From contig NZ_JAPJBQ010000004.1 in assembly GCF_026421305.1 (NCBI RefSeq), forward strand, positions 124,001 to 188,000: a stretch of DNA of 64,000 nucleotides, written 5' to 3'. Each line of letters starts with the position of its first letter. The stretch's first letter is position 1. The stretch is from Dyella silvae (lineage in GTDB: Bacteria > Pseudomonadota > Gammaproteobacteria > Xanthomonadales > Rhodanobacteraceae). This document shows positions 770-51,492 of this stretch, piece by piece. Under the pieces are notes generated by a model, which worked only from the letters and a program-made list of their open reading frames with translations, ran no database searches and was not told the DNA's origin. The translations under genes and the position numbers were made by a program.

Positions 770-2580
770 TGGGGGGCCTCGTCGACCGGTGCGTCATCGA
801 CGGTTTCGACAGCGGGCGGCTTGTTTCCTGTCAGGCCGTCCTGTCCCTGCAAAGGTCCACCGACATACCAGCGACCAATGTTGTCCGGCGGCACGTCCAA
901 CAACCGCAGTGCGCCGTCCAGGACTTTGGAGAACACGGGACCGGATACCAGCGCGCCGTAATAGCTGCCTTTTCTCGGGTTGTCGACGATCACCACCGCC
1001 GCCAGACGCGGGTTCGATGCGGGTACCACGCCGGCAAAGGCGGAACTGTAATTGTTATTGGAATAGCCGCCGGCCGTCGCCTTGTGCGCCGTTCCGGACT
1101 TGCCGGCCACGCCATAGTTGGCAATCCAGGTGTACGGCGCGCCTGTACCGCCCGGCTGCGTCACCGCCACCATCATCTGCACCAATTCCTTGGCGATCTT
1201 GGGATCGATGATCTGCTTGGCCTCGTTGTCCGAGCCCTTTACGAAAGTCGGCGAGTGCATCACGCCGTTGTCGGCGATGGTGGCGTAACCGTTCGCCAGC
1301 TGGAGCGGCGTCACGTTGAGGCCGTAGCCGTAGGCCAAAATGGCCTTCTCCAGCATGCCCCAGCCCTTGCCCGGCTTGAGGTAGCCGGAGGCTTCTCCGG
1401 GGAAGCCGCTATTGGTGCTGGCGCCGAAGCCGAACGCACGATACGTGTCGTACATCAGGCCCGTATCCAGCGTCAGCGCCACCTTGGCGGCGCCAATGTT
1501 GCTGGACTTGGCGATGATGCCGGTGGGCGACAACATGCCGTTCGAGTGCGTATCGCGGATGTCTTTGCGGATATAGAAAAAGTGGCCGTTGCCGGTATCG
1601 ACCAGCGGCCCCGTCGGCGTGTACTTGCCGCTGGACAACGCCGCGGCCATCACGAACGGCTTGATGGTGGAGCCCGGCTCCACCACGTCGGTCATCGCGC
1701 GATTGCGGCGGCTGGAGGGGTTGCTGCCACGCAGGGCGTTCGGGTTGTAGGTGGGCCAGTTCACCATGGCCAGCACTTCGCCCGTAGGCACGTCGATGAT
1801 CACCATCGAGCCGGAGTCCGCATCGGACTGCTGGATGGTGTTCTTCAGCTCGTTATAGGCAAGGAACTGGATGCGGCGGTCGATGCTGAGCGTGATGTCG
1901 CGACCCGGCTGCGGCGCGCGCACGAGGTCCAGGTCTTCCACCACATGACCCTGGCGATCGCGAATGACGCGCTTGCGGCCTTCCTTGCCGGCCAGCCAGT
2001 CGTCGAACGCCAGCTCCAGACCTTCCTGGCCGTGGTCGTCGATATTGGTGAAGCCGAGCACGTGAGCGGTCACCGGGCCCGACGGATAGAAGCGGCGGAA
2101 CTCACGCTGGCCATTCACGCCCGGCACAGCGAGATCGAGCACGACCTGTGCCGCGTCCGGCGACATCTGACGCTTGAGATAAACAAACTCGCGCTCGGAA
2201 CGCTGCGCGAGATACTGCTTGAGCGCGTCCGGATCCATGCCGATGGCCTTGGCCAGCGCCGGCAACTTGTCTTCGTTGTCCAGCACTTCGGCCGGGTTCG
2301 CCCAGATCGACATCACCGGCGTCGACACGGCCAGCGGCTCGCCATTGCGATCGAAGATGGTGCCGCGCGATACCGCAATGGGCACTTCGCGCAGGATGCG
2401 GGCATCCGCCTGGTTCTGATAGAAGTCCTTGCGCACCACCTGCATGTCGAACGCCCGCGCGACCAGCCCCAGCGAGGCCATGCCGAGCACGCTCACCACC
2501 AGCACCATGCGGCGGCGGGTGCTGGGTGCGCCGTCGCGGCGGCGGGAGGAGTGGGAGGTCGTGCGCGGGCGCGGCGTCAT
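766..2580 (-). CDS. ftsI: Peptidoglycan D,D-transpeptidase FtsI (PBP3)
   Basis: Septum-specific class B penicillin-binding protein that cross-links peptidoglycan with FtsW at the division site. The 604-residue protein has a short basic cytoplasmic tail and one membrane anchor (VLVVSVLGMASLGLVARAF, about residues 27-45). The pedestal domain follows, then the transpeptidase domain. Catalytic motifs are STIK with nucleophile Ser304 (context VEPGSTIKPF), the SSN motif in KSSNIGAAK, and KSGTA near the C-terminus, so it is predicted active. Length matches the family (about 580-610). Its start overlaps the ftsL stop and its stop overlaps the murE start, both by 4 bp. Confidence 0.97.
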   Translation of the reverse strand: MTPRPRTTSHSSRRRDGAPSTRRRMVLVVSVLGMASLGLVARAFDMQVVRKDFYQNQADARILREVPIAVSRGTIFDRNGEPLAVSTPVMSIWANPAEVLDNEDKLPALAKAIGMDPDALKQYLAQRSEREFVYLKRQMSPDAAQVVLDLAVPGVNGQREFRRFYPSGPVTAHVLGFTNIDDHGQEGLELAFDDWLAGKEGRKRVIRDRQGHVVEDLDLVRAPQPGRDITLSIDRRIQFLAYNELKNTIQQSDADSGSMVIIDVPTGEVLAMVNWPTYNPNALRGSNPSSRRNRAMTDVVEPGSTIKPFVMAAALSSGKYTPTGPLVDTGNGHFFYIRKDIRDTHSNGMLSPTGIIAKSSNIGAAKVALTLDTGLMYDTYRAFGFGASTNSGFPGEASGYLKPGKGWGMLEKAILAYGYGLNVTPLQLANGYATIADNGVMHSPTFVKGSDNEAKQIIDPKIAKELVQMMVAVTQPGGTGAPYTWIANYGVAGKSGTAHKATAGGYSNNNYSSAFAGVVPASNPRLAAVVIVDNPRKGSYYGALVSGPVFSKVLDGALRLLDVPPDNIGRWYVGGPLQGQDGLTGNKPPAVETVDDAPVDEAPQ

Positions 2581-2849
2581 CGGCGCACCAGCTGGATGTC
2601 TTGCGGCTTGGGATTGAGCATGCCCAGACGCTGGCGCGATTCGTCGTCAACGCGACGCGGCTCGGCCCAGGTAGCCTGTTCCAGCTCCAGCTTGCCGTAT
2701 TCGATGTTCAGATCGTCGCGCTGGTTCTGCAGGCGGGTCAGCTCGACGAACAACACGCGGCTCTCATGGCGCGTCCACACCACGGCAATGGCGCTGGACA
2801 GCACCGCCGCGATCAGGATCAGCATGAAGATGCCGCCGAGAACCTTCAT
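2577..2849 (-). CDS. ftsL: Cell division protein FtsL
   Basis: Small bitopic divisome protein of 90 residues that forms the FtsQLB complex and activates FtsWI. The N-terminus holds one transmembrane segment (about residues 3-24, [20 protein letters not shown]). It is followed by a periplasmic leucine-rich coiled coil ([20 protein letters not shown], about residues 36-55). Primary sequence is poorly conserved in this family, so the call rests on size, topology and position between rsmH and ftsI. It overlaps both neighbours by 4 bp, indicating translational coupling. Confidence 0.92.
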
Positions 2850-3769
2850 GAGAGCTTCTCCGCCACGCGCAGCACCGCGGAGCGGGAGCGCGGATTGACG
2901 GCCAGCTCGGCCTCGGAAGGAAACTGCGCCTTGCCCACGGCGGCCAGACGCGCCGGCGCGGCGGCGACCGGCGGACCACGGCGGCTGCCCTGCACGCGTC
3001 CCGAATGGTCGCGGATGAACAGCTTGACCGCACGATCCTCCAGCGAATGGAAGCTGATGATGGACAGGCGGCCGCCTACCTTGAGTAGCTCCAGCGCGGA
3101 CTGGAGGCCCTGCGCGAGCGCATCCAGCTCACCGTTCACGCGGATGCGCAACGCCTGGAAGCTCCGCGTGGCCGGATGCTTGCCCGGTTCGCGGCGGCCA
3201 ACGACGCGCTCGATCAGCGCAGCCAGCTGGCCGGTGCGGGTGATCGGGTTTTCAGCACGATCTTCGACAATGGCGCGGGCGATCTTTCGGCTGAAGCGCT
3301 CCTCACCGTAGATCCACAGCACGTCGGCGATGTCTTTCTCCGACGCATGGGCGAGAAAATCCGCGGCGCTTTCGCCCTGCGTGGTGTCCATGCGCATGTC
3401 CAGCGGCGCATCCGCCATAAAACTGAAGCCGCGAGCGGCTTCATCGAGCTGGGGCGAGGACACGCCGAGGTCGAGCAGGATGCCGTCAAGGCCGCCAGCG
3501 GTTTCGTCCCACTCAGCCATGCTGGAAAAGTTCGCGTGACGAATCGACACGCGCGGATCGCCGGCGAACTCAGCCTGCGCCGTGGCGATAGCCTGCGGAT
3601 CGCGATCCATCAGCAACAGGCGGCCTTCCGGCCCGAGGCGCGACAGCACAGCGCGAGCGTGGCCGCCGCGTCCAAAGGTGCCATCGAGATAACGCCCGCC
3701 TGCCTGCACGGCGAGTCCCTCCACTGCTTCACCCAGCATCACCGGGATGTGCACTAAACGCTCGGCCAT
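2846..3769 (-). CDS. rsmH: 16S rRNA (cytosine(1402)-N4)-methyltransferase RsmH
   Basis: SAM-dependent methyltransferase that makes m4Cm1402 in the ribosomal P site together with RsmI, which is also encoded in this window. The protein begins [19 protein letters not shown]. The SAM-binding motif [13 protein letters not shown] follows, then the [20 protein letters not shown] block and the C-terminal [15 protein letters not shown] motif, all characteristic of RsmH/MraW. I chose the ATG at 3769, with a GGGAG-like site about 11 nt upstream. The frame is also open to a GTG at 3817, 9 bp after the mraZ stop, giving 323 residues, so the start is uncertain. The stop overlaps ftsL by 4 bp. Confidence 0.95.
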
Positions 3770-4586: not shown

Positions 4587-4957
<371 letters not shown>

Positions 4958-5995: not shown

Positions 5996-7840
5996 ATGCG
6001 CTTGAATCGCGCTGCAGGCATTGCCCTGCTCTTTTCACTGGTACTCAGCGCTTGCGTGCCGCCGACGGTGGAGCGTTCGCCCGCCGAGATTGCCGCCAGC
6101 CAGCATGCCGACGCACTGGTGCAGCAAGGCAAGTTCGATGACGCGGCGCAGGCGTATCTCACGCTGGCGCAAACCGGTAGCAACCGCGACCACTATCAGT
6201 TGCTCGCGGCAGAAGCCTATCGCCAGGAAGGCCAACTCGACCGGTCGTCGCCTTTTCTCAATGCCATTCGCCGCCAGCGCCTGAGCGGTGACGAGCCGTC
6301 GCGGCTGGATCTGCTCCAGGCCGAACAGGCCTTGAAGCAGAACAATGCCGCGCGCGCCCTGCAACTCACCACGCAACCAAACGTCAGCGTGCCACCCGCG
6401 CTGCAACTGCGCCTGCTTGAGCTGCGCTCGCGGGCCATGGAGCAAACTGGCGACCTGTGGGGCGCCGCGCGTTCCCGTGTGGAAATGGACGGCCAACTGA
6501 AGGGCCTCGACCAGACGCAAAACCGCAAGGAGATTGTGTCCCTGCTCACCAAGCTTGGCGTCGACCCGCTCAAGCAACGCGCGGCGGCCATGCAGCCAGG
6601 TGACCGCATGCTGCCCTGGGTCAACGAGGCGCTCACACAGCTCGGTGTTGCCGTGGCAAACGCCGCACCATCACTCGGGCAGGAAGTCGGCACCCTGATA
6701 CCGGGTGAAGGCGCCAGCGTGCGCGAGGGCTACAAGATGCCCGCACACGTGGCGCTGCTGCTGCCCACCAGCGGCAACATCGCGGCGGCCGGCACGGCGG
6801 TTCGTGAAGGTTTCTTTGCCGCTTACGCGGATTCCACGCGCAATCACGCGCAACGCCCTCCGGTGCGGGTATACGACAGCGGCGGCACGGCTGCCGGCGC
6901 CATCAAGGCTTATCAGCAAGCAGTGAATGACGGTGCGCAGCTCGTCATCGGCCCACTTACTCGTGGCGAGGTCTCCGCGCTGTTCGGTCTGCCGCAACTG
7001 CCGGTGGCCCTGCTTGCGCTGAACCACCCTGATGACAAGAGCCTGCCTGCCAGTGGCGTGAGCGAGTTTGGCCTGCTGCCTGAAACGGAAGGCACGCAGT
7101 CCGCGGACCATATGGCGGAAGGCGGCATGCTTACGGCCTACGTCATCGTGAGCAACGATGACTTTGCGCAACGCGCGGCCAAGTCCTTCAAGGCCGAGCT
7201 GGAAGCACGCGGCGGCAAAGTCGTCAGCATGGGCACGCTCGCCAGCAGCGTGAACTTTGCGTCGACCATCAACGGCCTGGGCATACCTACCACCACAGGC
7301 GACGCCACCACCCCGAACAACGCCGGTATCTTCATCAGCATGCGCACGCAGCAGGCACGCCTGCTGTTGCCGCAGCTGAAGCTGGCTCGCGTGAGTCTGC
7401 CGGTGATCGGCACCTCGCACATCTACGCCGGTGCCGACGACGCCAGCGCCAACCGCGACCTGGAAGGCGTGGAGTTCTGCGACGCGCCGTGGTTGTTCGA
7501 TGTGCAGCCGGGCCTGCCCAATCATGGCGACATCGCCTCGCAGTTGCCCGCCGCGCGCGGCACGTCGGCACGCCTGTTCGCCTTCGGCATGGATGCATGG
7601 AATCTCGCGCCCTACGTTGACTGGCTGCGTGCACACCCCGGCAGCTATTTACCCGGCGCCAGCGGCCAGCTGACCTCCGACCAGTTCGGCCGCATCCGCC
7701 GCGTGCTGGTGTGGGCGAAGTTCCAGGATGGCCTCGCCCGTCCGCTCAACGGCAGCCTGCAGATGGATACCGCCCCGGCCTTGGCGCCACCGGCCGACAA
7801 CACCCAGCAGCCGCAAACCGGCGAGCCCACCACGCATTGA
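5996..7840 (+). CDS. lpoA: Penicillin-binding protein activator LpoA (outer-membrane lipoprotein)
   Basis: Outer-membrane lipoprotein that reaches through the periplasm to activate the PBP1A synthase. I start at ATG 5996 because MRLNRAAGIALLFSLVLSAC is a signal peptide ending in a lipobox (LSAC), and AAGGGA lies about 8 nt upstream; the frame is open further up to 5903. The mature protein has an N-terminal TPR-like region (about residues 30-240), then a periplasmic-binding-protein-like LppC domain (about 255-590) containing HVALLLPTSGNIAAAGTAVREGFFAAY. At 614 residues it matches the family. The gene is followed by yraN with a TGATG stop/start overlap. Confidence 0.93.
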   Translation: MRLNRAAGIALLFSLVLSACVPPTVERSPAEIAASQHADALVQQGKFDDAAQAYLTLAQTGSNRDHYQLLAAEAYRQEGQLDRSSPFLNAIRRQRLSGDEPSRLDLLQAEQALKQNNAARALQLTTQPNVSVPPALQLRLLELRSRAMEQTGDLWGAARSRVEMDGQLKGLDQTQNRKEIVSLLTKLGVDPLKQRAAAMQPGDRMLPWVNEALTQLGVAVANAAPSLGQEVGTLIPGEGASVREGYKMPAHVALLLPTSGNIAAAGTAVREGFFAAYADSTRNHAQRPPVRVYDSGGTAAGAIKAYQQAVNDGAQLVIGPLTRGEVSALFGLPQLPVALLALNHPDDKSLPASGVSEFGLLPETEGTQSADHMAEGGMLTAYVIVSNDDFAQRAAKSFKAELEARGGKVVSMGTLASSVNFASTINGLGIPTTTGDATTPNNAGIFISMRTQQARLLLPQLKLARVSLPVIGTSHIYAGADDASANRDLEGVEFCDAPWLFDVQPGLPNHGDIASQLPAARGTSARLFAFGMDAWNLAPYVDWLRAHPGSYLPGASGQLTSDQFGRIRRVLVWAKFQDGLARPLNGSLQMDTAPALAPPADNTQQPQTGEPTTH

Positions 7841-8196
7841 TGCGCGCAGCCGGCGCCGCATTCGAACAACGCGCCTGCGCGGAACTTCAACGCGCAGGCC
7901 TCAAGTTGCTGGCGCGAAATTACACCACGCGATACGGCGAGCTCGATCTGGTGATGCTTGATCGCGATACCGTGGTCTTCGTCGAAGTGCGTCACCGCCT
8001 GAGCAGCAGCCGGGGTGACGCCGCGGCCTCGGTCAACGCGGCCAAACAAGCCAAACTCACACGCACCGCTCAGCTGTGGCTGGTCGCCCACCCGCAACAC
8101 GCCCAGCGCGCGTGTCGTTTCGATGTGGTCTGCTACGACGGCCCCAACGATCATGCCACCATGAACTGGTGGCGCAACGCCTTCGACGCCGCATAG
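7840..8196 (+). CDS. yraN: YraN/UPF0102 family endonuclease-like protein
   Basis: Small protein of 118 residues from the UPF0102 family, with a restriction-endonuclease-like (Holliday-junction-resolvase-type) fold; the cellular role is not established. Family residues visible are GAAFEQRACAELQRAGLKLL, ARNYTTRYGELDLVMLD (the E-x-D metal-binding pair), and VFVEVRHR in place of the usual VFVEVKxR. The ATG shares its A with the lpoA stop (TGATG), so translation is coupled. Frame continuity upstream is only an overlap with lpoA. Confidence 0.9.
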   Translation: MRAAGAAFEQRACAELQRAGLKLLARNYTTRYGELDLVMLDRDTVVFVEVRHRLSSSRGDAAASVNAAKQAKLTRTAQLWLVAHPQHAQRACRFDVVCYDGPNDHATMNWWRNAFDAA

Positions 8197-8247
8197 GCGG
8201 CCCTTACGGCTATCCATCGCTGACATCGACACAGAGGACGTTTACGC

Positions 8248-8436
8248 ATGTCTGACTCACCGCCCGATGGTCTTCCGCGATACCGACTGCTGACCGGCAA
8301 GGACGACGCCAGCTTTTGCCGCCGCGTATCCGAGGCGCTTGAGCTGGGCTATGAGCTGTATGGCTCCCCCGCGGCGACCTTTAATGGCGACCATGTGGTC
8401 GTGGCCCAGGCGATACTCTGGCCGACACGCGACTGA
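8248..8436 (+). CDS. DUF1737 domain protein
   Basis: Small cytoplasmic protein of 62 residues with the DUF1737 pattern: YRLLTGKDDASFCRRVSEAL followed by GYELYGSPAATFNGDHVVVAQAI. Members are typically encoded singly and have no assigned biochemical function. The gene stands alone 51 bp after yraN, and AGAGGACG precedes the ATG as a ribosome-binding site. Confidence 0.85.
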   Translation: MSDSPPDGLPRYRLLTGKDDASFCRRVSEALELGYELYGSPAATFNGDHVVVAQAILWPTRD

Positions 8437-8517
8437 CAAGTCCACGATCTCTCCATGCATCGTCAGGCAGACTGACGGAGGTGTCGCCTGGTGGCGGCAC
8501 CCGACCACGGAGGCACC

Positions 8518-9999
8518 ATGCTTCGAGCATTGATCAAGCTTGGCAAATGGACGGCCATCGTCCTTCTGGTTTTCCTCGTTTCGCTGTTGGGCATACGCGC
8601 GTGGGATTCGCAGCAGGGCGACCCACTGGCGCTCTGGCAGACCTATGTGCCCCATGAGCTGACCGCCGCGGAAATCGACGCCACCGACTGGCAGGGCTAC
8701 CTCGCCGCGGAAGACCGGCTGTTCGACGAAGTCCGCACGCAAGTCAGCGACAAACTGCCGTCATCTGAGCGCGTTGCCACCAATCGTTACTTCGAAGGCG
8801 CTCCGATGTATCCGGGGCATTTCGCCCACGACTGGAATCGCTCGTACGTACTCGAACCGAAAGGAAAGCCCGTGGGTGCCGTGGTCCTGATCCACGGCCT
8901 GACCGACTCGCCCTATAGCCTGCGCGACATCGCCGAGCTGTATCGCGACCACGGCTTTGTGGCCATCGGCTTGCGCGTGCCCGGTCACGGCACGGTACCC
9001 GCGGCCCTGACCGAGGCTCAGTGGCCAACATGGATGGCTGCCACACGACTGGCCATGCGCGAGGCGCGCCGGCGCGTCGGCGCGCAGGCACCCATTCACA
9101 TGGTGGGTTACTCCAACGGCGGCGCGCTGTCGCTCAAGTACACGCTGGACACCCGCGACCAGAACGAACTGACCAGACCGACGCAACTGGTGTTGTTGTC
9201 GCCGATGATTGGCGTAACGCGCTTTGCGCGCTTCGCTGGCCTTGCTGGCCTGCCGGCCATCCTGCCGTCGTTCGCCAAAGCAGCCTGGCTTGATCTGCTG
9301 CCGGAGTACAACCCGTTCAAGTACAACTCGTTCCCGGTCAACGCGGCACGCCAGACTTATCTGCTGACAGACGCTATCCGGAACCAGCTGCAGAGTCTCG
9401 ATCGCGAACAGAAATTGGCGGGCATGCCACCCATTCTTACTTTTCAATCGGTGATCGATGACACCGTGAGCGCGCCTGCCGTCATGCGCACGCTGTTTGC
9501 CAGGCTCCCCGCCAATGGCAGCGAGATCGTACTGTTCGATGTCAACCGCAACCACCGCTTCGATTCTCTGCTGCGGGCCAGCTCCCTGCAGGCCTTGCAG
9601 CATCTGCTGCCGCCGGGGCCACAACGCTTTCGCAGCACGGTGATCGCCAACGCAGCAGCGAACGATAGTCACATGGTGGCGCGCACCACCGAGGCCGGTC
9701 ACGACCAGGCCACGGTGACGCCACTATCCATCGAGTACCCCGACGACATTTTCTCGCTGTCGCATATCGCCCTGCCCTTTCCGCCCAACGATCCGCTCTA
9801 TGGCACGCAACCCGACATGTCGGAAGACTTTGGCGTTCGCCTGGGCACCCAGGCGCCACGCGGCGAGCGAGGCGCCCTTATCCTCAACCTCGACGCCGTG
9901 CTGCGCATCAGCTCCAATCCGTTCTATCCGTACGTGCGCGAACGCATCGAGGAAATCATTCCGGCCACTCCGACGGCGACAGCGCAGCAGGTGCACTAG
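8518..9999 (+). CDS. Membrane-anchored alpha/beta hydrolase (carboxylesterase/lysophospholipase-like)
   Basis: 493-residue serine hydrolase. A single N-terminal transmembrane segment (about residues 11-28, TAIVLLVFLVSLLGIRAW) likely anchors it in the inner membrane with the domain in the periplasm. The oxyanion motif is VLIHGLTDSPYSL, and the nucleophile elbow is GYSNGG with Ser199. Candidate acid and His residues lie in the region VIDDTVSAPAV and in FDVNRNHRFDSL or LSHIALPFPPND. The ATG at 8518 is preceded by GGAGG at 7-8 nt; an in-frame GTG at 8491 is less likely. The substrate is not predictable. Confidence 0.8.
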   Translation: MLRALIKLGKWTAIVLLVFLVSLLGIRAWDSQQGDPLALWQTYVPHELTAAEIDATDWQGYLAAEDRLFDEVRTQVSDKLPSSERVATNRYFEGAPMYPGHFAHDWNRSYVLEPKGKPVGAVVLIHGLTDSPYSLRDIAELYRDHGFVAIGLRVPGHGTVPAALTEAQWPTWMAATRLAMREARRRVGAQAPIHMVGYSNGGALSLKYTLDTRDQNELTRPTQLVLLSPMIGVTRFARFAGLAGLPAILPSFAKAAWLDLLPEYNPFKYNSFPVNAARQTYLLTDAIRNQLQSLDREQKLAGMPPILTFQSVIDDTVSAPAVMRTLFARLPANGSEIVLFDVNRNHRFDSLLRASSLQALQHLLPPGPQRFRSTVIANAAANDSHMVARTTEAGHDQATVTPLSIEYPDDIFSLSHIALPFPPNDPLYGTQPDMSEDFGVRLGTQAPRGERGALILNLDAVLRISSNPFYPYVRERIEEIIPATPTATAQQVH

Positions 10000-29912: not shown

Positions 29913-29920
29913 CATTGATC

Positions 29921-30015
29921 CCGTCGAGGGGCGCTGCGACCGTTGGCCTGTTGAATCCATGCACGATTCTGCGGACCCGGCCAGGCTCGGCGGATGTTCC
30001 CTGTAACGGCGCCCG
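29921..30015 (+). ncRNA. S-adenosylhomocysteine (SAH) riboswitch
   Basis: The conserved aptamer elements appear in order: CGAGGGGCGCTGCGACC (from 29925), a variable loop, CCAGGCTCGG (29981-29990) and AACGGCGCCC (30005-30014). CGAG (29925-29928) pairs with CTCG (29986-29989) as P1. GGGCGC (29929-29934) pairs with GCGCCC (30009-30014) as the pseudoknot helix. This arrangement and location upstream of ahcY match the known SAH riboswitch, which turns expression on when SAH accumulates. The 45 nt to the ATG contain the expression platform, probably controlling ribosome access near CCGGAGC (30047-30053). Confidence 0.92.
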
Positions 30016-30060
30016 GTTAACGATGCGGCCTTCTGGTCGCAACACCCGGAGCTAAGCCAA

Positions 30061-43161: not shown

Positions 43162-44445
43162 TCAGGCGAAGACGATGCTGGCGATCGCGCCATTGGTATC
43201 GGAACGCGGACGCATCGACACCTCCCAGCCATAGAGTTCGCAGAGTCGGCGAACGATGGCCAGACCCAGGCCGGCGCCGCTGCCACCCGCACCCTCGCCA
43301 CGCACGCCACGCTGGAACAAACGTTCCGCATCTTCCGGCTTGATGCCCGGCCCGGTATCGATGATGTCGATGCGCTTGTCGCTCACCTCCACCGTCACCG
43401 TGCCTTCGAGCGTGTACTTGATGGCGTTGCCAATGAGGTTGGTCAACGCCACCGACAAGACCGAGGCAGGCGCATTCACGCTCACCGGCTGCCTGACCAG
43501 CAGTTCGATGCCCAGCGGCTTGTCGCGCATCTGGGGACGCTGGCTCTCGATGACGTCAGACGCCACCTTCGCCACTTCCGTGGTCTCGCCACGCGTGGGG
43601 CCGCGACGCTCCGCACGGGACAGCAACAGCAGCGCTTCGATCAGCTCCGTCGCCTGACGCGAGGCGCGCTCGATGCGCTTCAGGCGCTCGCGCAACTTGT
43701 CAGTGAGATCGGGCGACCCCTGCAGCAATTCGGTGGTGCTGGAAATCACGGCCAGCGGCGTGCGCAGCTCGTGGCTCACGTCGGAGTTGAATTCGCGGTC
43801 ACGCTCCACCATCGCGGTGAGCCGCTGCGAATACTCATCCAACGCCAACGCCAGCTCGCCCACTTCGTCGTCGGCAAAATGCGGAGCCAGCGGTTCGGCT
43901 TTGCCGTTCTTGCGGAAATCGCGCAGGCGTCGCGCCAGATCGCTTACCGGCTTGAGCACCTTGCGCGAAAGCCACAGGCCCAGCACCAAGGACAGCAACC
44001 CGAACAGGAACACCGCGCCGATCACGCTGATCAGCAGCTGCTGCTTGCCTAGTTCTTCGCGCGACACGTCGTAGCGCAGGAAGCTGATGATGCCGTTCTC
44101 ACGAAACACCGCCAGCTTGTAGTGATGCCGCTGGCCTTCCTGATCGGTTTCGTAGATGTCGTGCACCCCATTGTCCAGGTTCTGCCAGGACAACGGTGCC
44201 TTGTAGAGCGTGCGATCGCTCAGCACGGTGCCGGTGAGCAAGCGGGATCCGCTCGGCGCACCGGGGTGATCGTGTGCCTGTTGATTGGCCCAGCGTGCGT
44301 CATCCATCAGGCTGGCGTTGACCAGCTGATCTTCCACTCTGCTGCGGATGTTGAGGGCCGCAAATGCAAACAACGCGCTGAGGCCGAAACCGAACAGCGC
44401 GAAGGAGACGACCAGGCGATACCTGAGCTTACGCCTGGACTGCAT
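43162..44445 (-). CDS. Two-component sensor histidine kinase
   Basis: 427-residue inner-membrane kinase. TM1 is at about 9-32, a periplasmic sensor at 33-135, TM2 at 136-159 and HAMP at 160-212. The HisKA motif is FNSDVSHELRTPLAVISS with phospho-acceptor His225. ATP-binding boxes are N (NLIGNAIKYT), G1 (DTGPGIKPED) and G2 (GGSGAGLGLAIVRRL). The sensor lacks a recognisable ligand domain. The ATG at 44445 overlaps the regulator stop by 17 bp. The frame is open upstream to 44469. Confidence 0.92.
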   Translation of the reverse strand: MQSRRKLRYRLVVSFALFGFGLSALFAFAALNIRSRVEDQLVNASLMDDARWANQQAHDHPGAPSGSRLLTGTVLSDRTLYKAPLSWQNLDNGVHDIYETDQEGQRHHYKLAVFRENGIISFLRYDVSREELGKQQLLISVIGAVFLFGLLSLVLGLWLSRKVLKPVSDLARRLRDFRKNGKAEPLAPHFADDEVGELALALDEYSQRLTAMVERDREFNSDVSHELRTPLAVISSTTELLQGSPDLTDKLRERLKRIERASRQATELIEALLLLSRAERRGPTRGETTEVAKVASDVIESQRPQMRDKPLGIELLVRQPVSVNAPASVLSVALTNLIGNAIKYTLEGTVTVEVSDKRIDIIDTGPGIKPEDAERLFQRGVRGEGAGGSGAGLGLAIVRRLCELYGWEVSMRPRSDTNGAIASIVFA

Positions 44446-45115
44446 CCGGTTCGACCATCCGATATCCAATGCCGTGCCGCGTGTGGATCAGCGGCTTGTC
44501 GAACGGCTTATCGATCGCGGCGCGCAAACCATGGATGTGCACGCGCAGCGAATCGCTGTCCGGCAGCTCTTCGCCCCACACGCGCTGTTCCAGATCCTGT
44601 CGCGTCACCACCGACGGGCTCGCCTCCATCAGCGCCTGCAACAGTTTCAGGCCGATGGGGTTGAGCTGGATCGACTTACCTTCGCGGGTCACGGTGAGCG
44701 TGTCGAGGTTGTAGGTGAGATCGCCCACCTTGAGCACGCGGCTCTGGGGCCCCTTGCCACGTCGGGCCAGCACTTCCAGGCGTGCCGCCAGCTCCTGCAG
44801 CGCGAAGGGCTTGGTCATGTAATCGTCCGCGCCCGACTCAAAGCCCGTGAGCTTCTGCTCCAACGCATCGCGCGCCGTCAGCATCAGGATGGGCGTCTGC
44901 TTGTGGGCCTCGTGCCGCAGCTTGCGCGCGACATCCAGGCCATCCATGCCCGGGAGGGTCAGGTCCAGCACGATCACGTCGAAGTCATGCACCACCGCCA
45001 GATGCAGGCCGGTCACGCCATCGCCGGCAAAATCGACCACATGGCCGCGGTCTTCCAGATAATCGCCGATGTTGGTCGCGATATCGCTGTTGTCTTCGAT
45101 CACCAGTACGCGCAT
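44429..45115 (-). CDS. OmpR/PhoB-family response regulator
   Basis: 228-residue regulator with a receiver domain (acidic pocket Glu7-Asp8, phospho-acceptor Asp51 in VIVLDLTLPGMDGL, Lys in DDYMTKPFALQEL) and a winged-helix output domain ending DSLRVHIHGLRAAIDKPFDK. It starts MRVLVIEDNSDIATNIGDYL at ATG 45115; the frame is open to 45202 but family alignment supports this start. It precedes its cognate kinase with an overlap. Target genes cannot be predicted here. Confidence 0.93.
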   Translation of the reverse strand: MRVLVIEDNSDIATNIGDYLEDRGHVVDFAGDGVTGLHLAVVHDFDVIVLDLTLPGMDGLDVARKLRHEAHKQTPILMLTARDALEQKLTGFESGADDYMTKPFALQELAARLEVLARRGKGPQSRVLKVGDLTYNLDTLTVTREGKSIQLNPIGLKLLQALMEASPSVVTRQDLEQRVWGEELPDSDSLRVHIHGLRAAIDKPFDKPLIHTRHGIGYRMVEPDAVQA

Positions 45116-45230
45116 GCGTCCTCCATACGCAGCCGGCATAGGGGCCGGCCGTGGCGGCAAGCTTAACAAGCTGCGCCGGGGAAAGGGGCTCCCGGCGAGC
45201 ACAAAGCTGAACGGGATGCACGATGGGCAA

Positions 45231-45274
45231 GAAAAAAGCCCAGGCAGCCCGACTTAGCGTCGCTTTGCCTGGGC
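45231..45274 (-). terminator. Terminator after the tandem secreted-protein array
   Basis: On the minus strand GCCCAGGCA (45266-45274) pairs with TGCCTGGGC (45238-45246) and is followed by TTTTTTC. It separates the array from the response-regulator gene. The rest of 45116-45416 shows no gene and must hold the regulator promoter. Confidence 0.85.
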
Positions 45275-45416
45275 CCAAGCTACTGCCCCGATACCGAAAT
45301 CTGCTGTCACCATACCTTGCGGGAAGTGCCAAGCAAATTGCAGTGGAGCCTTTATAGGGGCGCCGCGGTTACACGGTGGTTAACCGGTACTCACTTCGGC
45401 GTTAATCCCTGAGCTC

Positions 45417-45905
45417 TCAATTTCCAGGGCCCCTGCCGTTCTGAACCTGTTGCTTGCTACGCAGGAAATCCTGCGCCTGACCGCTGTCTTCGGTGAGCTG
45501 GCGCTGCGTACGGCATACCGTCTTGGGAATATTGGATCCCATCGGCTTGACCTGCTCGCAAATTTCACGGTCTGCGTCATGGCGAGTCAGAATCGCGTTG
45601 ACTTCGGATTGGTTGTTGTAGAGCTCAACCTTGGTCGCCTGATCCATCGCATCGACGGTGCCAAACCTGTCGTAGAGCGACTGCATATTGCTCAGGTCGC
45701 GATTGACCGTCGCCTGCTGGTTCTTGTCCACGGAATCGAACCGCCCACCCGGCGCCATTTGCTGGCGAACGTGATCGGCCACAGCGGCGAACTGATCCTT
45801 GGTATCAGCCTTGACGTCAGGCTTGGCTTCCTTTGCAACGACGGTAGCCACCTGCAACACCATCGCCATCGCTGCCAACAACGGCAGCCAGCGCTTGCAC
45901 TTCAT
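45417..45905 (-). CDS. Tandem secreted protein, copy 1 (unknown family)
   Basis: 162-residue protein, starting MKCKRWLPLLAAMAMVLQVA, with a cleavable signal peptide of about 24 residues (ending VVAKEA). The mature domain is acidic and helical: DQFAAVADHVRQQMAPGGRF, then DLSNMQSLYDRFGTVDAMDQ, then ELYNNQSEVNAILTRHDADR. A conserved C-terminal motif REICEQVKPMGSNIPKTVCR has two cysteines 14 residues apart, likely a disulfide. Most positions are identical to copies 2 and 3, with the C-terminal tail (QVQNGRGPGN) diverging. I do not recognise a named family. It has its own promoter and terminator. Confidence 0.9.
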   Translation of the reverse strand: MKCKRWLPLLAAMAMVLQVATVVAKEAKPDVKADTKDQFAAVADHVRQQMAPGGRFDSVDKNQQATVNRDLSNMQSLYDRFGTVDAMDQATKVELYNNQSEVNAILTRHDADREICEQVKPMGSNIPKTVCRTQRQLTEDSGQAQDFLRSKQQVQNGRGPGN

Positions 45906-45962
45906 CCCTTGCCTCCCAACCTGCTGCATCCCCCCACGGGACGCGCCCTGCAGGAACGCCCG

Positions 45963-45991
45963 ATCCTAGGCGCAACCCGTTTCGAGGTCAA
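45963..45991 (-). promoter_or_regulatory. Promoter of tandem copy 1
   Basis: TTGACC (45986-45991) and TAGGAT (45963-45968), 17-nt spacer. The same layout recurs before copies 2 and 3. Confidence 0.75.
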
Positions 45992-46079
45992 AAATGCCAA
46001 TCGGACCCATCGACCTTCTGCAGGCAACGGCGCCCTTGCGGCGCCGGCTAATGGGATTCTGCATCAAGCAACCAACCAT

Positions 46080-46110
46080 GGCGGCCACCGCATCAACAGC
46101 GGCGGCCGCC
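46080..46110 (-). terminator. Hairpin after tandem copy 2
   Basis: GGCGGCC (46080-46086) and GGCCGCC (46104-46110) form a stem 7 bp past the copy 2 stop. It is derived from a duplicated segment of rimK coding sequence. The U-tract is weak, so termination is possible but not certain. Confidence 0.5.
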
Positions 46111-46117
46111 TCGTCAC

Positions 46118-46621
46118 TTATTCCTTGCCGGGAATCTTCGACTTTCCTACCCCCTGAACTCTCACCGAGTGGTCCTCGAGGTAATCTTTGGTTTGGTCCT
46201 CTTCCGCATTGATTTGACGCTGAGTGCGGCACATCGTCTTGGAAATATTGGACCCCATCGGCTTGACCTGCTCGCAGACTTCACGATCACCATCATGGTG
46301 AGTCAGGATCGCGTTGACTTCCGACTGGTTGTTGTAGAGCTCAACCTTCGTCGTCTGGTCCATCGCATCGACGGTGCCGAATCTGTCGAATAGCGACTGC
46401 ATAGTGCTCAGGTCGCGATTGACCGTTACCTGCTGATTCTTGTCGACGGATTCAAACCGCCCACCCGGTACCATCTGCTGGCGAACGTGATCCGCCACTG
46501 CGGTGAACTGATCTTTGGTATCGGCCTTGACGTCAGGCGCGGCTTCCTTTGCAACGACGGTCGCCACCTGCGACACCATCAACATCGCTGCCAATAACGG
46601 CAGCCAGCGTTTGCACTTCAT
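46118..46621 (-). CDS. Tandem secreted protein, copy 2 (unknown family)
   Basis: 167-residue protein closely related to copies 1 and 3. The signal peptide begins MKCKRWLPLLAAMLMVSQVA. Differences include KEAAPD for KEAKPD, QQMVPGG for QQMAPGG and SNISKTMCR for SNIPKTVCR. The C-terminal tail is EDQTKDYLEDHSVRVQGVGK. The two cysteines are kept. Maintenance of the reading frame and the motif despite substitutions suggests selection rather than decay. It is separated from copy 1 by a unit containing a promoter and a rimK 3' remnant. Confidence 0.9.
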   Translation of the reverse strand: MKCKRWLPLLAAMLMVSQVATVVAKEAAPDVKADTKDQFTAVADHVRQQMVPGGRFESVDKNQQVTVNRDLSTMQSLFDRFGTVDAMDQTTKVELYNNQSEVNAILTHHDGDREVCEQVKPMGSNISKTMCRTQRQINAEEDQTKDYLEDHSVRVQGVGKSKIPGKE

Positions 46622-46679
46622 CCTTATGCCTCCCAGCCTGCTGCATCCCCCCTCGGGATGCTCCCTGCAGGAGCGCCCG

Positions 46680-46708
46680 ATGCTAGGCTCAAGGATTTTC
46701 GCGGTCAA
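46680..46708 (-). promoter_or_regulatory. Promoter of tandem copy 2
   Basis: TTGACC (46703-46708) and TAGCAT (46680-46685) with a 17-nt spacer, preceded by the shared GGCATTT. Confidence 0.75.
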
Positions 46709-46796
46709 AATGCCATTCGGACTATTCGACCTTCTGCACGCGGCGGCACCCTTGCGGTGCCAGTTGATGAAATTCCGTTTCAAGTAACCGAATAAC

Positions 46797-46827
46797 GGCG
46801 GCCACCGCATCAACTGCAGTGGCCGCC
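46797..46827 (-). terminator. Hairpin after tandem copy 3
   Basis: GGCGGCCAC (46797-46805) pairs perfectly with GTGGCCGCC (46819-46827), 10 bp past the copy 3 stop. The U-tract is weak. The corresponding rimK coding sequence (47508-47541) lacks this perfect pairing. Confidence 0.55.
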
Positions 46828-46837
46828 TCTTAACTCA

Positions 46838-47335
46838 TTACCCGCCCTTCTCTTTCGATCCCACACCCTGAACTCTCGTCGAGTGGTTCTCGAGAAATGC
46901 CTTGGATTGGTCGGCTTCCATGTTGATCTGACGCTGAGTGCGGCACACGGTCTTGGGAATGTTGGTCCCCATCGGCTTGACCTGCTCGCAGACTTCACGA
47001 TCACCATCATTGTGGGTCAGGATCGCGTTGACTTCGGACTGGTTGTTGTAGAGCTCAACCTTCGTCGTCTGGTCCATCGCATCGACGGTACCGAATCGGT
47101 CGTAGAGCGACTGCATCGTGCTCAAGTCGCGATTGACCGTCGCCTGCTGTTTCTTATCGACCGATTCAAACCGCCCGCCTGGCGCCATCTGCTCGCGAAC
47201 GTGATCGGCCACAACGGCGAATTCGTCCTTGGTATCAGCCTTGACGTCAGGCTTGGCTTCCTTCGCAACGACGGTCGCCACTTGCGACACCATCAACATC
47301 GCTGCCAACAACGGCAGCCAGTGCTTGCTCTTCAT
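46838..47335 (-). CDS. Tandem secreted protein, copy 3 (rimK-proximal, probably ancestral)
   Basis: 165-residue exported protein starting MKSKHWLPLLAAMLMVSQVA. The mature region matches the other copies: TKDEFAVVADHVREQMAPGG, DAMDQTTKVELYNNQSEVNA, and DREVCEQVKPMGTNIPKTVCR with two cysteines. The C-terminus ends RVQGVGSKEKGG. It lies directly downstream of rimK, with its promoter between the rimK stop and its own start, so it is the likely parent of the triplication. Function unknown; periplasmic or secreted by prediction. Confidence 0.9.
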   Translation of the reverse strand: MKSKHWLPLLAAMLMVSQVATVVAKEAKPDVKADTKDEFAVVADHVREQMAPGGRFESVDKKQQATVNRDLSTMQSLYDRFGTVDAMDQTTKVELYNNQSEVNAILTHNDGDREVCEQVKPMGTNIPKTVCRTQRQINMEADQSKAFLENHSTRVQGVGSKEKGG

Positions 47336-47391
47336 CCTTGCCTCCCAACCTGCTGCATCCCCCCTCGGGATACACCTTGCAGGAACGCCGG

Positions 47392-47420
47392 ATGCTAGGC
47401 ACAAGACGTTTCGGGGTCAA
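47392..47420 (-). promoter_or_regulatory. Promoter of tandem copy 3
   Basis: TTGACC (47415-47420) and TAGCAT (47392-47397), 17-nt spacer, 13 bp beyond the rimK stop. Confidence 0.75.
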
Positions 47421-47433
47421 AATGCCAAACGGC

Positions 47434-48351
47434 CTAATTGGTCTTCTGCGCGCGGCCACGCACCGGCGCTGCGGGTTGGCGAGATTCCGTTTCCAGTAAC
47501 CGAATAATGGCCGCCGCCACATCCACGCCAGTGGCTGCCTCGATACCCTCAAGGCCCGGCGATGCATTGACCTCGAGAATCAACGGACCGCGCCTGGAGC
47601 GCAGCATGTCCACGCCGGCGACGCCGAGCCCAAGAGCCGAGGCCGCCTGCACTGCAATACGGCGCTCCTCGGCGCTGAGTGTGGCGGCCTGAGCCGTGCC
47701 ACCGCGATGCAGATTGGCGCGAAATTCGCCCGGGCTGGCATCCCGCTGCATGGCCGCGACAACCTTCTTGCCCACCACGAAACAACGAAGGTCGCTGCCC
47801 TTGGCTTCGGCGATGAACTCCTGCACCAGAAAGTTGGCGTAGAGGCCGCGAAACGCTTCAATCACGCTTTGCGACGCGCTTTTCTTTTCCGCCAGCACGA
47901 CGCCAGTGCCCTGGCTGCCTTCATTGAGTTTGATCACATGCGGCGGATCGCCAAGCATGCCCAGCACGTCAGCGGTGTCGTCCGGATTGTCACCGAACAC
48001 CGTCGCAGGCATATCCAGCCCCTTGGCGGCGAGCATCTGCAGACAACGCAGCTTGTCGCGAGCACGCAGTACCGCATCGGAGGAGTTGGGCGTGTACACA
48101 CCCATCATTTCCAGCTGACGCAGCACCGCCGTGCCATAGAACGTACTGGTGACACCGATGCGTGGAATCACCGCGTCGATGCCCTTGATGGCCTTGCCCT
48201 TGTAACGCAACGACATGTTGCCGGGCGCGATGCGGACATAGCAGCGCAGCGGGTCAAGCACGCGCACCACATGGCCGCGATCACGGGCCACGTCGACCAG
48301 ACGCTGCGTCGAGTAGAGCCGGGTGTTGCGCGAAAGAATAGCGATCTTCAT
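47434..48351 (-). CDS. rimK: RimK-family ATP-grasp ligase (ribosomal protein S6 glutamylation)
   Basis: 305-residue ATP-grasp enzyme that adds glutamates to the C-terminus of ribosomal protein S6. It begins [20 protein letters not shown]. Conserved stretches are [59 protein letters not shown] and [21 protein letters not shown]. Size is normal (about 300). The start overlaps rimB by 4 bp. Its last 38 codons have been copied twice into the downstream array. Confidence 0.95.
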
Positions 48352-48803
48352 GAAACACCCATGTTGCCCGCCATCACCGGACGGGGCTGTGAATAGGAAA
48401 GCGCGGGATCCACAGCGAACCGCCCCTGCAGCGCCGTGCGGCCCAATAGCATAGGAAACAGCATGTGGCGCCGATCGGTCAGATTGATGTCGACCTCAAA
48501 ACGATCACCCGCCAGACATACCTCAGTACGTATGAACCACCGCATGGTGCGACGGCCACCCGTATCCGTCACCGCTCGCCGATCAAGCGCCCGTGACTCG
48601 CAAACCACGGCCACGCGATGGCGGCCGCCCACGTTCACGGCGAAGCGCAACCAGGTTTCACCATCGCGTTCGAAGTGCTCCAGCGCGTCCACGTGCAGCG
48701 AACTGCTGCGCGCGCCAGTGTCGAGTTTGGCCTTGAGTAACGGAATACCGAGCGTCGGCAACGCCAGCCGTTCCCGCCAGCCGAGGGTGATCACATCCGC
48801 CAT
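48348..48803 (-). CDS. rimB: RimB-like retropepsin-type protease
   Basis: 151-residue cytoplasmic protein of the family labelled ATP-dependent zinc protease, with an aspartic retropepsin-like core [20 protein letters not shown] (catalytic Asp in DTGA) and [18 protein letters not shown]. In Pseudomonas the equivalent rimABK gene product acts on glutamylated S6. The 4-bp overlap with rimK supports joint function. A rimA gene is not present next to it. Confidence 0.88.
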
Positions 48804-48842
48804 AGTGCTGGGTTACGTGAAAAAGCTCGGTGGGGTGGGGAG

Positions 48843-48916
48843 TGGAGCGGGTGAAGGGAATCGAACCCTCGTCAGTAGCTTGGGAAGCTACAGCTCTACC
48901 ATTGAGCTACACCCGC
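48843..48916 (-). tRNA. tRNA-Gly (anticodon CCC)
   Basis: Cloverleaf on the minus strand: acceptor GCGGGTG/CACCCGC, D arm GCTCAATGGTAGAGC, anticodon stem GTAGC/GCTAC with loop TTCCCAA (CCC at positions 34-36), and T arm AGGGTTCGATTCCCT. The 3' TCCA (discriminator plus CCA) is encoded. The 230 bp between it and the next gene hold no gene I can identify. Confidence 0.96.
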
Positions 48917-49146: not shown

Positions 49147-51492
49147 ATGCGTGTGCTTTCTGCCTCCCTACTGTCGCCGCGCGTCCGGCGATGGATGGCG
49201 GCCGCCCTGTTTATCTGCGCCACCGGCATCACACAGGCGCAAACCCAGCCACCACCTGACGATAGCGGTGCGGGCGACCCACCCTCGCGCGCCGCGCGCC
49301 TGTCTTACCGCACCGGTGACGTGGGCCTGCTGCCCGCCGGCGAGAAGAACTGGGGGGATGCCAGCCTCAACCGGCCGCTGACCACCGGCGATCGCCTGTC
49401 GACCGGCGACGGGGCGCGGGCTGAACTGGAAATCGGCGGCGGCACCCTGCGCATCGCTGACGATTCCGACTTCGGCTTCCTGACCCTCAACGACCAGATG
49501 GCCCAGGTCGAGGTCACCAAGGGCACGTTGAATCTGTCCGTGCGTGGACTGGCCGAAGGCCAGAGCTACGAGATCGACACGCCCAACGTGGCGCTGGTAG
49601 TGGATCAACCCGGCACCTACCGCGTCGACATCAGCGATGACGGCAAGTCGACGCGCGTTATCGATATCAATGGCCGTGCCACGGTGTATGGCGAAGGCGG
49701 CGCCCAGCGCCAGCTAGCCGCGGGGCGCAGCTATGAGTTCCCCGACTCGTCACTCAACAACGTGACGGTCAGTGACACCGATGGCGGCGACGACTTCGAC
49801 GCGTGGTGCAATAGCCGCGACCAACGTTATGAACGCCCGGTTTCGCGGCAATACGTCTCCGACGAGGTCGTGGGTTATCAGGACCTCGATCAGTACGGCA
49901 GCTGGCAAAGTGACCCGGATTACGGCCAGGTCTGGTACCCGGCGAACGTAGCGGTGGACTGGGCCCCGTACCGCAACGGCCATTGGGCCTACGTTGGCCC
50001 CTGGGGCTGGACCTGGGTGGACGATTCCCCGTGGGGCTTCGCGCCTTATCACTACGGCCGTTGGGCCCACGTACGGGATCGCTGGTGCTGGGTGCCGGGT
50101 CCTGTCGCCGTGCGTCCGGTGTATGCACCGGCCCTGGTGGCCTTCGTGGGTGGCGCCGGCTTCAACGTGTCGGTGGGCATCGGCCGGGGGCCGGTCGGCT
50201 GGTTCCCGCTTGGCCCGCGCGAGGTTTACAACCCGTGGTATCGCGCCAGCCGCAACTACTACACCAACGTCAACGTCACCAACATCTACGTGCACAACGA
50301 CCGCAACGTGGTGATCAACAACATCAACAACCAGTACAACTACTTCCGCGCGGGCCGGCCGGTGCCGAATGAGCGCTGGGCCAACCGTGAGGTGCCGCAC
50401 GCCTTTACCGCAATGTCGGGCCAGGATTTCGCGGCCGCCCGCAACGCGCAGCGGCACATGGTGTCAGTCGATCCGCAACGGTTTGCCGCTGCCCCGGTGA
50501 TGCCGCGAGGCATCGACATGCAGCCGTCGCGCACCAGTTTTGCCCCGCCGCGCGCCGCGTCCGCCCGCGCCCTGCCCGCTGGCGGATTCCAGCGCGAAGT
50601 CGTCGCTCGCACGGCACCGGCTGCAGCGTTTGCCAACCGCAATCCCAACCCGGCCGGCATGCCGCGGGCGGCGCAAGCGCAGGCGCCGGCCAACGTGCGC
50701 ATGCTGAATGGTTCGGGCCCTGCTATGCGCACGGCCTCTCCGGAACGGCAGGCTGGTGCTCCGGCGATGCAGCAAGCGCCGTCGATGCGCAATGGCGCCC
50801 CCGCAGAAGCGCAGCGCCCTTACGTGCGTTCGGAGAACCAACAGCCTGCCATGCGACCGGGCGAACTGCCCTCCGCCCGTTTTGCGCGTCCGTATGCCGA
50901 GCCCCAGCAGCGTCCGGCCCCCAACAACAACCAGCCACGACCGGGCGTGAGCTACATCCCCAATGCCGAATCTGATCGGGCACGGGGCCAGCAGCAGGGC
51001 GCACTGCCCAATGTTCCCCGCTTCGAACCGGCGCAACCGCAGCAGGCGCCGCGCCAGGCGGCGAACCAGGACAACGAGGAGCGGTTTCAGCGCGACAACG
51101 CGATGCAACGTCAGGCCGCGCAACAGCAGGAGATGCAGCAGCGGCAGGCGCAGGAACAGCAAATGCAGCAGCGCCAGGTGCAGCAACAGCAGATGCAGCA
51201 ACGGCAGGAGATGCAGCAGCGCGAGGAGTCACAGCGTCAGGCTATGCAGCAGCAACAGGCCCAGCAACAGCGCCAGGAGATGCAGCAACGGCAGGCCATG
51301 CAACAGCAGGAGATGCAACAGCGCCAGGCGCAGCAACAGGAAATGCAGCAGCGCCAGGCCCAGCAGCAGCGCGGCTACGAGCCACCGCGCGGTTACCAGC
51401 CGCCGCAACCCCAGCCCCAGCAGCACCCGCAGCAGTCGGGCCACGACGACCACAAGGCACCACCGCCTCAAAAGAACGAGCAGCACAACTGA
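49147..51492 (+). CDS. FecR/DUF6600-like exported protein with a Gln-rich C-terminus
   Basis: 781-residue protein. A signal peptide (about 1-32, FICATGITQAQ) is followed by a FecR-like region (about 45-195: RAARLSYRTGDVGLLPAGEK, GARAELEIGGGTLRIADDSD). The Trp/Tyr-rich DUF6600-type domain (about 240-390) contains YGQVWYPANVAVDWAPYRNG and PWGFAPYHYGRWAHV. Beyond about 430 the protein is low complexity, rich in Pro, Ala and Arg. At about 650-745 it consists almost only of MQQRQAQQQ-type repeats. It is probably periplasmic or envelope-associated; no function is established. ATG 49147 follows CCGGAGAATCCG. Confidence 0.85.
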   Translation: MRVLSASLLSPRVRRWMAAALFICATGITQAQTQPPPDDSGAGDPPSRAARLSYRTGDVGLLPAGEKNWGDASLNRPLTTGDRLSTGDGARAELEIGGGTLRIADDSDFGFLTLNDQMAQVEVTKGTLNLSVRGLAEGQSYEIDTPNVALVVDQPGTYRVDISDDGKSTRVIDINGRATVYGEGGAQRQLAAGRSYEFPDSSLNNVTVSDTDGGDDFDAWCNSRDQRYERPVSRQYVSDEVVGYQDLDQYGSWQSDPDYGQVWYPANVAVDWAPYRNGHWAYVGPWGWTWVDDSPWGFAPYHYGRWAHVRDRWCWVPGPVAVRPVYAPALVAFVGGAGFNVSVGIGRGPVGWFPLGPREVYNPWYRASRNYYTNVNVTNIYVHNDRNVVINNINNQYNYFRAGRPVPNERWANREVPHAFTAMSGQDFAAARNAQRHMVSVDPQRFAAAPVMPRGIDMQPSRTSFAPPRAASARALPAGGFQREVVARTAPAAAFANRNPNPAGMPRAAQAQAPANVRMLNGSGPAMRTASPERQAGAPAMQQAPSMRNGAPAEAQRPYVRSENQQPAMRPGELPSARFARPYAEPQQRPAPNNNQPRPGVSYIPNAESDRARGQQQGALPNVPRFEPAQPQQAPRQAANQDNEERFQRDNAMQRQAAQQQEMQQRQAQEQQMQQRQVQQQQMQQRQEMQQREESQRQAMQQQQAQQQRQEMQQRQAMQQQEMQQRQAQQQEMQQRQAQQQRGYEPPRGYQPPQPQPQQHPQQSGHDDHKAPPPQKNEQHN
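51097..51375 (+). repeat. Low-complexity Gln/Met/Arg repeat within the FecR/DUF6600-like gene
   Basis: Degenerate short repeats of CAG/CAA, ATG and CGC codons encode units such as EMQQRQAQQQ (about residues 651-743). The pattern is prone to length change by slippage or unequal recombination. Confidence 0.8.

Follow-up and report, generated by a model that had tools for sequence, protein, structure and literature searches.

A tandem array of a putative exported-protein gene, interspersed with potentially stem-forming rimK remnants, beside a two-component system in Dyella silvae

The rimK–X array and its units

The 64,000-nucleotide stretch of the Dyella silvae genome analysed here (contig NZ_JAPJBQ010000004.1, positions 124,001 to 188,000; hereafter the window) carries an unnamed gene for a predicted exported protein in three intact head-to-tail copies on the minus strand, spaced 716 and 714 bp apart and flanked by rimK on one side and by genes for a response regulator and a histidine kinase on the other (Table 1). 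The gene is given the working name X, and its copies are denoted C1, C2 and C3 in the order of transcription from rimK. A preliminary description of this DNA, which had reported three paralogues at a period of about 715 bp, counted them along the plus strand; its copy 3 is C1, the first gene downstream of rimK. Copy starts are ATGs picked by alignment, the mechanically called open reading frames (ORFs) being longer. A repeat search returned three 300-nt copies at the same spacing, with 76% and 88% identity to the reference copy, as well as three 203-nt copies of the upstream flank, of which 47339-47541 and 45910-46112 are 80% and 61% identical (ungapped) to 46627-46829. Because the units differ by roughly 15-25%, and their flanks have diverged too, an assembly artefact from identical repeats is ruled out. 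Protein and profile searches of the organism's own genome found three X copies, all in this array.

The segments between C1 and C2 (r1) and between C2 and C3 (r2) contain remnants of the end of rimK. About 110 bp of such sequence had been proposed upstream of two of the copies; the remnants measure 108 bp, with 82 of 108 and 69 of 107 positions identical to the rimK tail. The predicted similarity between the rimK end and the array was also present in a blastn search, in which a 300-nt query (the rimK end and about 60 following bases) matched at E-values of 1.6e-35 and 3.8e-18, and it is therefore not due to chance.

Table 1 Features of the rimK–X–regulator locus, with the basis of each assignment
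Feature	Position	Strand	Basis
rimB-like retropepsin, overlaps rimK start	48348-48803	-	PF05618 107.5 bits; RimB model NF052261 109 bits (below cut-off 200)
rimK, intact source of remnants	47434-48351	-	NF007764 410 bits (cut-off 331); Pfam RimK and Rimk_N
C1 promoter-like site TTGACC-17-TAGCAT	47392-47420	-	promoter scan; conserved upstream block
C1 5' leader hairpin	47348-47384	-	covariation, model match; coordinates read from sequence
X copy C1, 165 amino acids, predicted exported; adjoins rimK	46838-47335	-	ORF list; protein search of own genome
rimK remnant r1, between C1 and C2	46722-46829	-	identity to rimK tail 47434-47541
r1 13-bp stem (G-U allowed), just past C1 stop	46797-46827	-	folding, stem comparison
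r1 second small hairpin, GGCACC/GGTGCC	46745-46761	-	folds; coordinates read off sequence
C2 promoter-like site TTGACC-17-TAGCAT	46680-46708	-	promoter scan; conserved upstream block
C2 5' leader hairpin	46636-46672	-	covariation, model match; coordinates read from sequence
X copy C2, 167 amino acids; sister of C1	46118-46621	-	ORF list; protein search of own genome
rimK remnant r2, between C2 and C3	46005-46112	-	identity to rimK tail
r2 12-bp stem (G-U allowed), just past C2 stop	46080-46110	-	folding, stem comparison
r2 second small hairpin, GGCGCC/GGCGCC	46029-46045	-	folds; coordinates read off sequence
C3 promoter-like site TTGACC-17-TAGGAT	45963-45991	-	promoter scan; conserved upstream block
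C3 5' leader hairpin	45919-45955	-	covariation, model match; coordinates read from sequence
X copy C3, 162 amino acids, adjoins response regulator; earliest branch	45417-45905	-	ORF list, search, tree
Conserved RNA candidate, 3' intrinsic terminator, before response regulator	45230-45350	-	RNAalifold, model scans
OmpR-family response regulator	44429-45139	-	PF00072 and PF00486
Sensor histidine kinase	43162-44454	-	HAMP, HisKA, HATPase

Duplication history and constraint

A codon tree of 17 rows pairs C1 with C2 (100/99) and attaches C3 to that pair (100/99) without any further row coming between; a 100-row protein tree likewise places C1, C2 and C3 in one clade (100/99). Synonymous divergence (dS) amounts to 0.41 between C1 and C2, to 0.64 and 0.62 between C3 and the other copies, and to 0.745 in the between-species comparison of C3 with locus L032. 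We infer that both duplications took place in this lineage, the first once it had separated from the sampled species and the second later. In the first, the end of X would have been fused to rimK 108 bp ahead of that gene's end: the junction, as read by eye, falls immediately past the stop codon of X on one side and within rimK on the other, with GAG common to both sides. The second would then have given three units. The head-to-tail units, the junction within the neighbouring gene and the single clade correspond to a tandem duplication with a partial flanking gene, and the remnants support the earlier proposal that the duplicated unit began inside rimK, now refined into two successive events. 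The parental order envisaged there, rimK followed by a promoter and one gene, agrees with 15 of the 19 other loci of the genus, which hold a single copy in this place (two copies in the remaining four). In all, the observations of the preliminary description were reproduced and its duplication model was right in outline, while its interpretation holds in part.

The ratio of nonsynonymous to synonymous divergence (dN/dS) is 0.235-0.249 among the window copies, 0.235 for C3 and L032, and 0.168-0.270 in six copy-to-relative comparisons, indicating that the copies have been retained under purifying selection. Within the protein, dN is 0.05-0.06 over the core (residues 25-135) and reaches 0.33 (C1-C2) and about 1.0 (against C3) in the tail (residues 136-165); such fast-diverging C-terminal tails suggest partial diversification in addition to a higher dose. 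The presence of three copies may have been beneficial, and dosage selection is one candidate explanation, although a dN/dS of 0.24 shows retention and not dosage.

Arrays of X are found in several lineages. Including the window, 20 loci hold at least two X ORFs (the count for L060 includes a broken copy). Lineage-specific array clades occur at L125 and L100 (four copies each), L105 (three), and L109, L060 and L046 (two each), whereas the three-copy arrays L135 and L136 have copies in common between species, and an older paralogue is present at the two-copy genus loci L038, L043 and L044. At the rimK-regulator address the copy number ranges from 0 to 3, arrays of four being located elsewhere. 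The broken copy within the L060 array (about 2136-2605, genome G071) is interrupted by two TAG stops. Of the other arrays, 14 have rimK within range, and 0 of these carry a rimK fragment: they gave only matches of 11-19 nt, the best of them (16 nt, in L113) being an overlap of the query and the array region; five arrays with no rimK in range lay outside this comparison. A general association of such fragments with X arrays is consequently rejected.

Potential hairpins in the remnants and leaders

The longest uninterrupted stem, with G-U pairs allowed, comprises 6 pairs in the rimK tail, 13 in r1 and 12 in r2. Over 31 nt, rimK and r1 show seven differences, one in the loop and six in the stem, each of the latter creating or improving a pair; in the rimK genes of 19 relatives only 4-9 of the 13 r1 pairs can form. 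When 26 random substitutions were placed on the rimK tail in a neutral simulation, a 13-bp stem appeared anywhere in 4 of 4000 runs and one of at least 12 bp in 13 of 4000; the energy fell to the level of r1 in 7 of 1500 runs. Base shuffles reached 13 bp in 6 of 4000 cases for r1 and 12 bp in 54 of 4000 for r2.

A substantial possibility, albeit one we hold short of probable, is that the remnants are neutral debris whose stems are a functionless product of quasi-palindrome template switching. Over its outer 11 nt the remnant 3' arm exactly matches the reverse complement of the rimK 5' arm in L038 and L044, so that one template switch could account for most of the stem, and its form may owe more to that event than to selection. 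The remnants resemble the outcome of quasi-palindrome template switching (PMC8604942, PMC3820800) in that the two arms of an imperfect inverted repeat have been homogenised; the present case differs in its setting, a piece of rimK that no longer codes, and in carrying further pair-forming changes. With respect to intrinsic termination, the stems are GC-rich (13 and 12 pairs), but a U-run after them is lacking and the terminator scan called none on the minus strand there, its single call being on the plus strand (46101-46115). Nor do upstream X copies generally carry such structures: a strong 3' stem (p<0.05) follows 7 of 29 upstream copies, two of which are the window's own, compared with 13 of 74 last or single copies, leaving a general need for 3' stems between X copies unsupported. 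Neutral debris would, on the other hand, not be expected to agree better inside the hairpins than outside, as r1 and r2 do (43 of 48 positions within the two hairpins, 41 of 59 outside; Fisher p 0.017, for regions chosen after inspection). The second small hairpin differs between r1 and r2 by one pair changed on both sides, and two more stem changes, at positions 12 and 13, likewise create pairs. A mutational origin followed by retention is considered most likely for the remnant stems, and a function of these potential structures is plausible.

Upstream of the genes, the window copies and most relatives in the genus have the motif TTTGACC separated by 17 nt from TA..AT, and a hairpin of about 38 nt follows immediately before the ribosome-binding site. 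The promoter scan found 3 sites against a shuffle expectation of 1.4 (sd 1.3); this count by itself being weak, conservation across the genus is the better support for the promoter. In an alignment of 27 leaders (21 from the genus, six from other genera) 90.8% of cells are paired, compared with 40-63% for slid structures. Eight of the 13 pairs and 23 cells are changed on both sides, and the covariation score was equalled by 0 of 500 shuffles, though the structure was drawn from the tested sequences themselves, which biases the test in its favour. This count leaves out L038b (an older paralogue without the hairpin), the divergent X type at L047-L050 and more distant genera. RNAalifold recovered the outer stem and part of the inner stem from the same alignment (9 pairs). 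Across 20 genus genomes, a scan with the leader model, which scored 150 of about 1,900-3,500 first-look candidates per genome, placed 21 of 22 matches directly before an X gene and one weak match (E 0.08) elsewhere; the model was not matched in G001, G006, G008 and G017, which have the divergent X type. The leader is likely to act as a 5' stabilising stem-loop. Each unit could be a self-contained transcription unit with its own promoter, structured leader and intact gene, and the two upstream copies would in addition receive a 3' hairpin built from the rimK fragment.

Protein X, its genomic address and its possible role

The X copies have a hydrophobic N-terminal signal sequence without a lipobox, as read by eye from the translation, and the protein is presumed to be exported. 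Fourteen columns are invariant among 42 aligned members, including GGR 53-55, C116, G123 and C131; of the features noted earlier for the three copies, the frames are intact and the Cys pair is invariant in 42 of 42. An AlphaFold2 model built from five sequences (mean predicted local distance difference test score, pLDDT, 75.8; predicted template modelling score 0.61) contains helices at 36-50, 61-81 and 89-111, in blocks mostly above 90 pLDDT, followed by strands at 114-119 and 128-133 and a helix at 134-157, with block values of 79 dropping to 50. The predicted fold is helical with a two-cysteine hairpin, and since the strand register puts C116 opposite C131 (region pLDDT about 79), a disulfide between them is likely. 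Neither the three window copies nor the 42 members gave a convincing Pfam or NCBIfam family match; stray hits to Pfam DUF3280 (E 0.0049, eight of 42 members) and to NCBIfam entries (E 0.0015 and 0.0018, two members each, one being RNase_A_lipo) were judged to be chance. Searches for similar sequences in the PDB (best E 1) and similar structures with Foldseek (best E 0.29) returned no match.

Profile matches to X were obtained in 103 of 197 genomes of the family, 117 of 250 of the order and 7 of 274 of the class, three of these seven belonging to the order. Many weak matches in the order cover the cysteine hairpin only (about profile positions 100-156). At four loci, L141-L144, stand-alone lipoprotein-like ORFs of about 100 amino acids have this module as their C-terminal half. 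The search for plasmid carriage yielded a single weak match, on a Xanthomonas plasmid (E 0.1). In a literature search made mostly without subscription papers, none was recognised on X, its leader or the RNA candidate described below.

All 19 other loci of the genus have rimB, rimK, X, regulator and kinase in this order on one strand, and three genus genomes (G004, G011 and G006) have an extra X match on another contig or in another place. In other genera of the family X is rimK-linked in 29 of 35 fetched loci: the 15 best-scoring all have rimK or part of it beside X, while among 20 more distant loci 14 are linked and six are not (L099, L100, L104, L105, L108 and L115). Nine of 20 loci from other families have rimK, all in one family (f2, presumably Xanthomonadaceae); of the 11 without it, four encode short module-only proteins. 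The link to rimBK that the preliminary description had left unexplained can accordingly be restated as an address, rimK–X–two-component system, found in two families of the order, albeit with exceptions.

This linkage might be taken to mean that X works with RimB and RimK in ribosome modification, given its frequency in the genus (19/19), in other genera (29/35) and in other families (9/20). We consider it very improbable: X has a signal sequence whereas the substrate of RimK is a ribosomal protein, rimK is retained in 19 of 20 family genomes that lack X, and at eight f2 loci an RNA match, partly weak, intervenes between rimK and X. In the Pseudomonas rimABK system, according to PMC7343187 and PMC10092738, RimA is a phosphodiesterase of cyclic di-GMP (c-di-GMP). 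The present locus is similar to the rimABK described there in having rimB and rimK adjacent with a further gene nearby; it differs in that X is unrelated to RimA and has a signal sequence, and in that a two-component system and an RNA candidate follow. The Pfam and NCBIfam matches include no phosphodiesterase family (E up to 1 for the three copies, up to 0.1/0.05 for the 42 members), and X was rejected as a RimA homologue. The rimK gene of Xanthomonas citri is treated in PMC4690215, which was not used here.

The RNA candidate is a 121-nt element between X and the regulator with a near-invariant core. Its alignment holds 26 distinct sequences from 41 loci, collected by pattern; RNAalifold predicts 30 pairs, only four of them changed on both sides, and the terminator stem shows two such changes, from C-G to U-A in 7 of 26 and from A-U to G-C in 2 of 26. 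The model finds one match each in 53 of 59 family genomes and 24 of 26 genera (E up to 0.001), with or without X, and in 20 of 61 genomes of the order (E up to 0.01), eight of these in the window's family and two, weak, in f2. On rescanning 13 family loci the match lay just before the regulator in 12 (one at E 0.04), L174 giving none. In f2 the element lies between X and the regulator at L131 and between rimK and X at the eight loci mentioned (E 5e-6 to 0.2); X can thus sit on either side of it. A search of 44900-48900 against Rfam gave only tRNA at E up to 1, for this element as for the X leader. Upstream of the RNA, at 45368-45406 (minus strand), GTTAAC/TGTAAC-like half-sites spaced 22 and 11 bp form a candidate OmpR-family operator, which this regulator itself might bind.

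The locus can be read as rimB-rimK-(X)-RNA-regulator-kinase, in which X would act in the cell envelope together with the regulator/kinase pair. That X is an exported envelope protein and an optional accessory of this pair is the reading we prefer, with about an even chance. It draws on the address common to two families and on the f2 loci with rimK and a regulator, in 6 of 9 of which X either overlaps the nearest regulator start or is separated from it by 2-18 bp (these starts being estimates). CpxP is a periplasmic accessory protein of a two-component system; X is comparable to accessories of this type in being small, helical, predicted to be exported and encoded beside a regulator/kinase pair, and unlike them it is often absent and lacks such a Pfam match, no named Pfam family of CpxP-like periplasmic regulators being hit.

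Several points weigh against this partnership. X is often found apart from rimK (6 of 20 distant family loci, 11 of 20 other-family loci, and L051), and the profile search did not find it in 94 of 197 family genomes. All 18 fetched X-lacking loci keep rimK, regulator and kinase, with a gap of 213-499 bp between rimK and the regulator and no X match; as these genes stay adjacent without X, the two-component system does not need it. In the window each X copy is preceded by a promoter-like site, and C3 is 277 bp away from the regulator. A different, tentative account treats X as an output: it would be an envelope protein made in abundance, structural or stress-related, located by rimK for historical reasons, with arrays formed by ordinary unequal crossing-over and kept for dosage. 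The own promoter-like site with its covarying 5' hairpin, the several lineage-specific arrays and the optional presence of X would all fit, whereas the immediate contact of X with the regulator gene in 6 of 9 f2 loci and the address common to two families do not.

X and the regulator are about 2.4-2.9 kb apart at a further set of family loci. In seven that were inspected (L047, at 6539-9008, L101, L109, L116, L097, L106 and L112) this interval holds a gene that we take to be BlaR1/TonB-like, and in all seven its C-terminal part contains C-x(3)-TG[ST]-x(2)-C-R, a motif similar to the cysteine hairpin of X; L109 has alongside it an ORF that we presume to be BlaI-like. Elsewhere in the window are a DUF6600 protein ending in a long repeated tail rich in Q and M (49147-51492, plus strand; tandem repeats within 51118-51406), a SAH riboswitch (29920-30021, plus strand) and RNase P RNA (4587-4953, minus strand).

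The array resembles an ordinary tandem duplication with a partial flanking gene in that its head-to-tail units carry the neighbour's end, and departs from it in the long potential stems that this fragment has acquired between the copies; it documents a coding fragment turned strongly base-paired after duplication. A wider scheme, which we think improbable though less so than a ribosome-modifying X, would unite these elements in one envelope-to-ribosome circuit, with X copy number as an evolutionary gain setting and the rimK piece recruited as a hairpin separating the added units. For the family, the analysis gives the unnamed exported proteins X a recurrent genomic address, candidate partners and tandem arrays in several lineages, at a locus where a conserved RNA candidate unmatched in Rfam is also present, and a possible coupling of envelope sensing with ribosome modification becomes directly testable.

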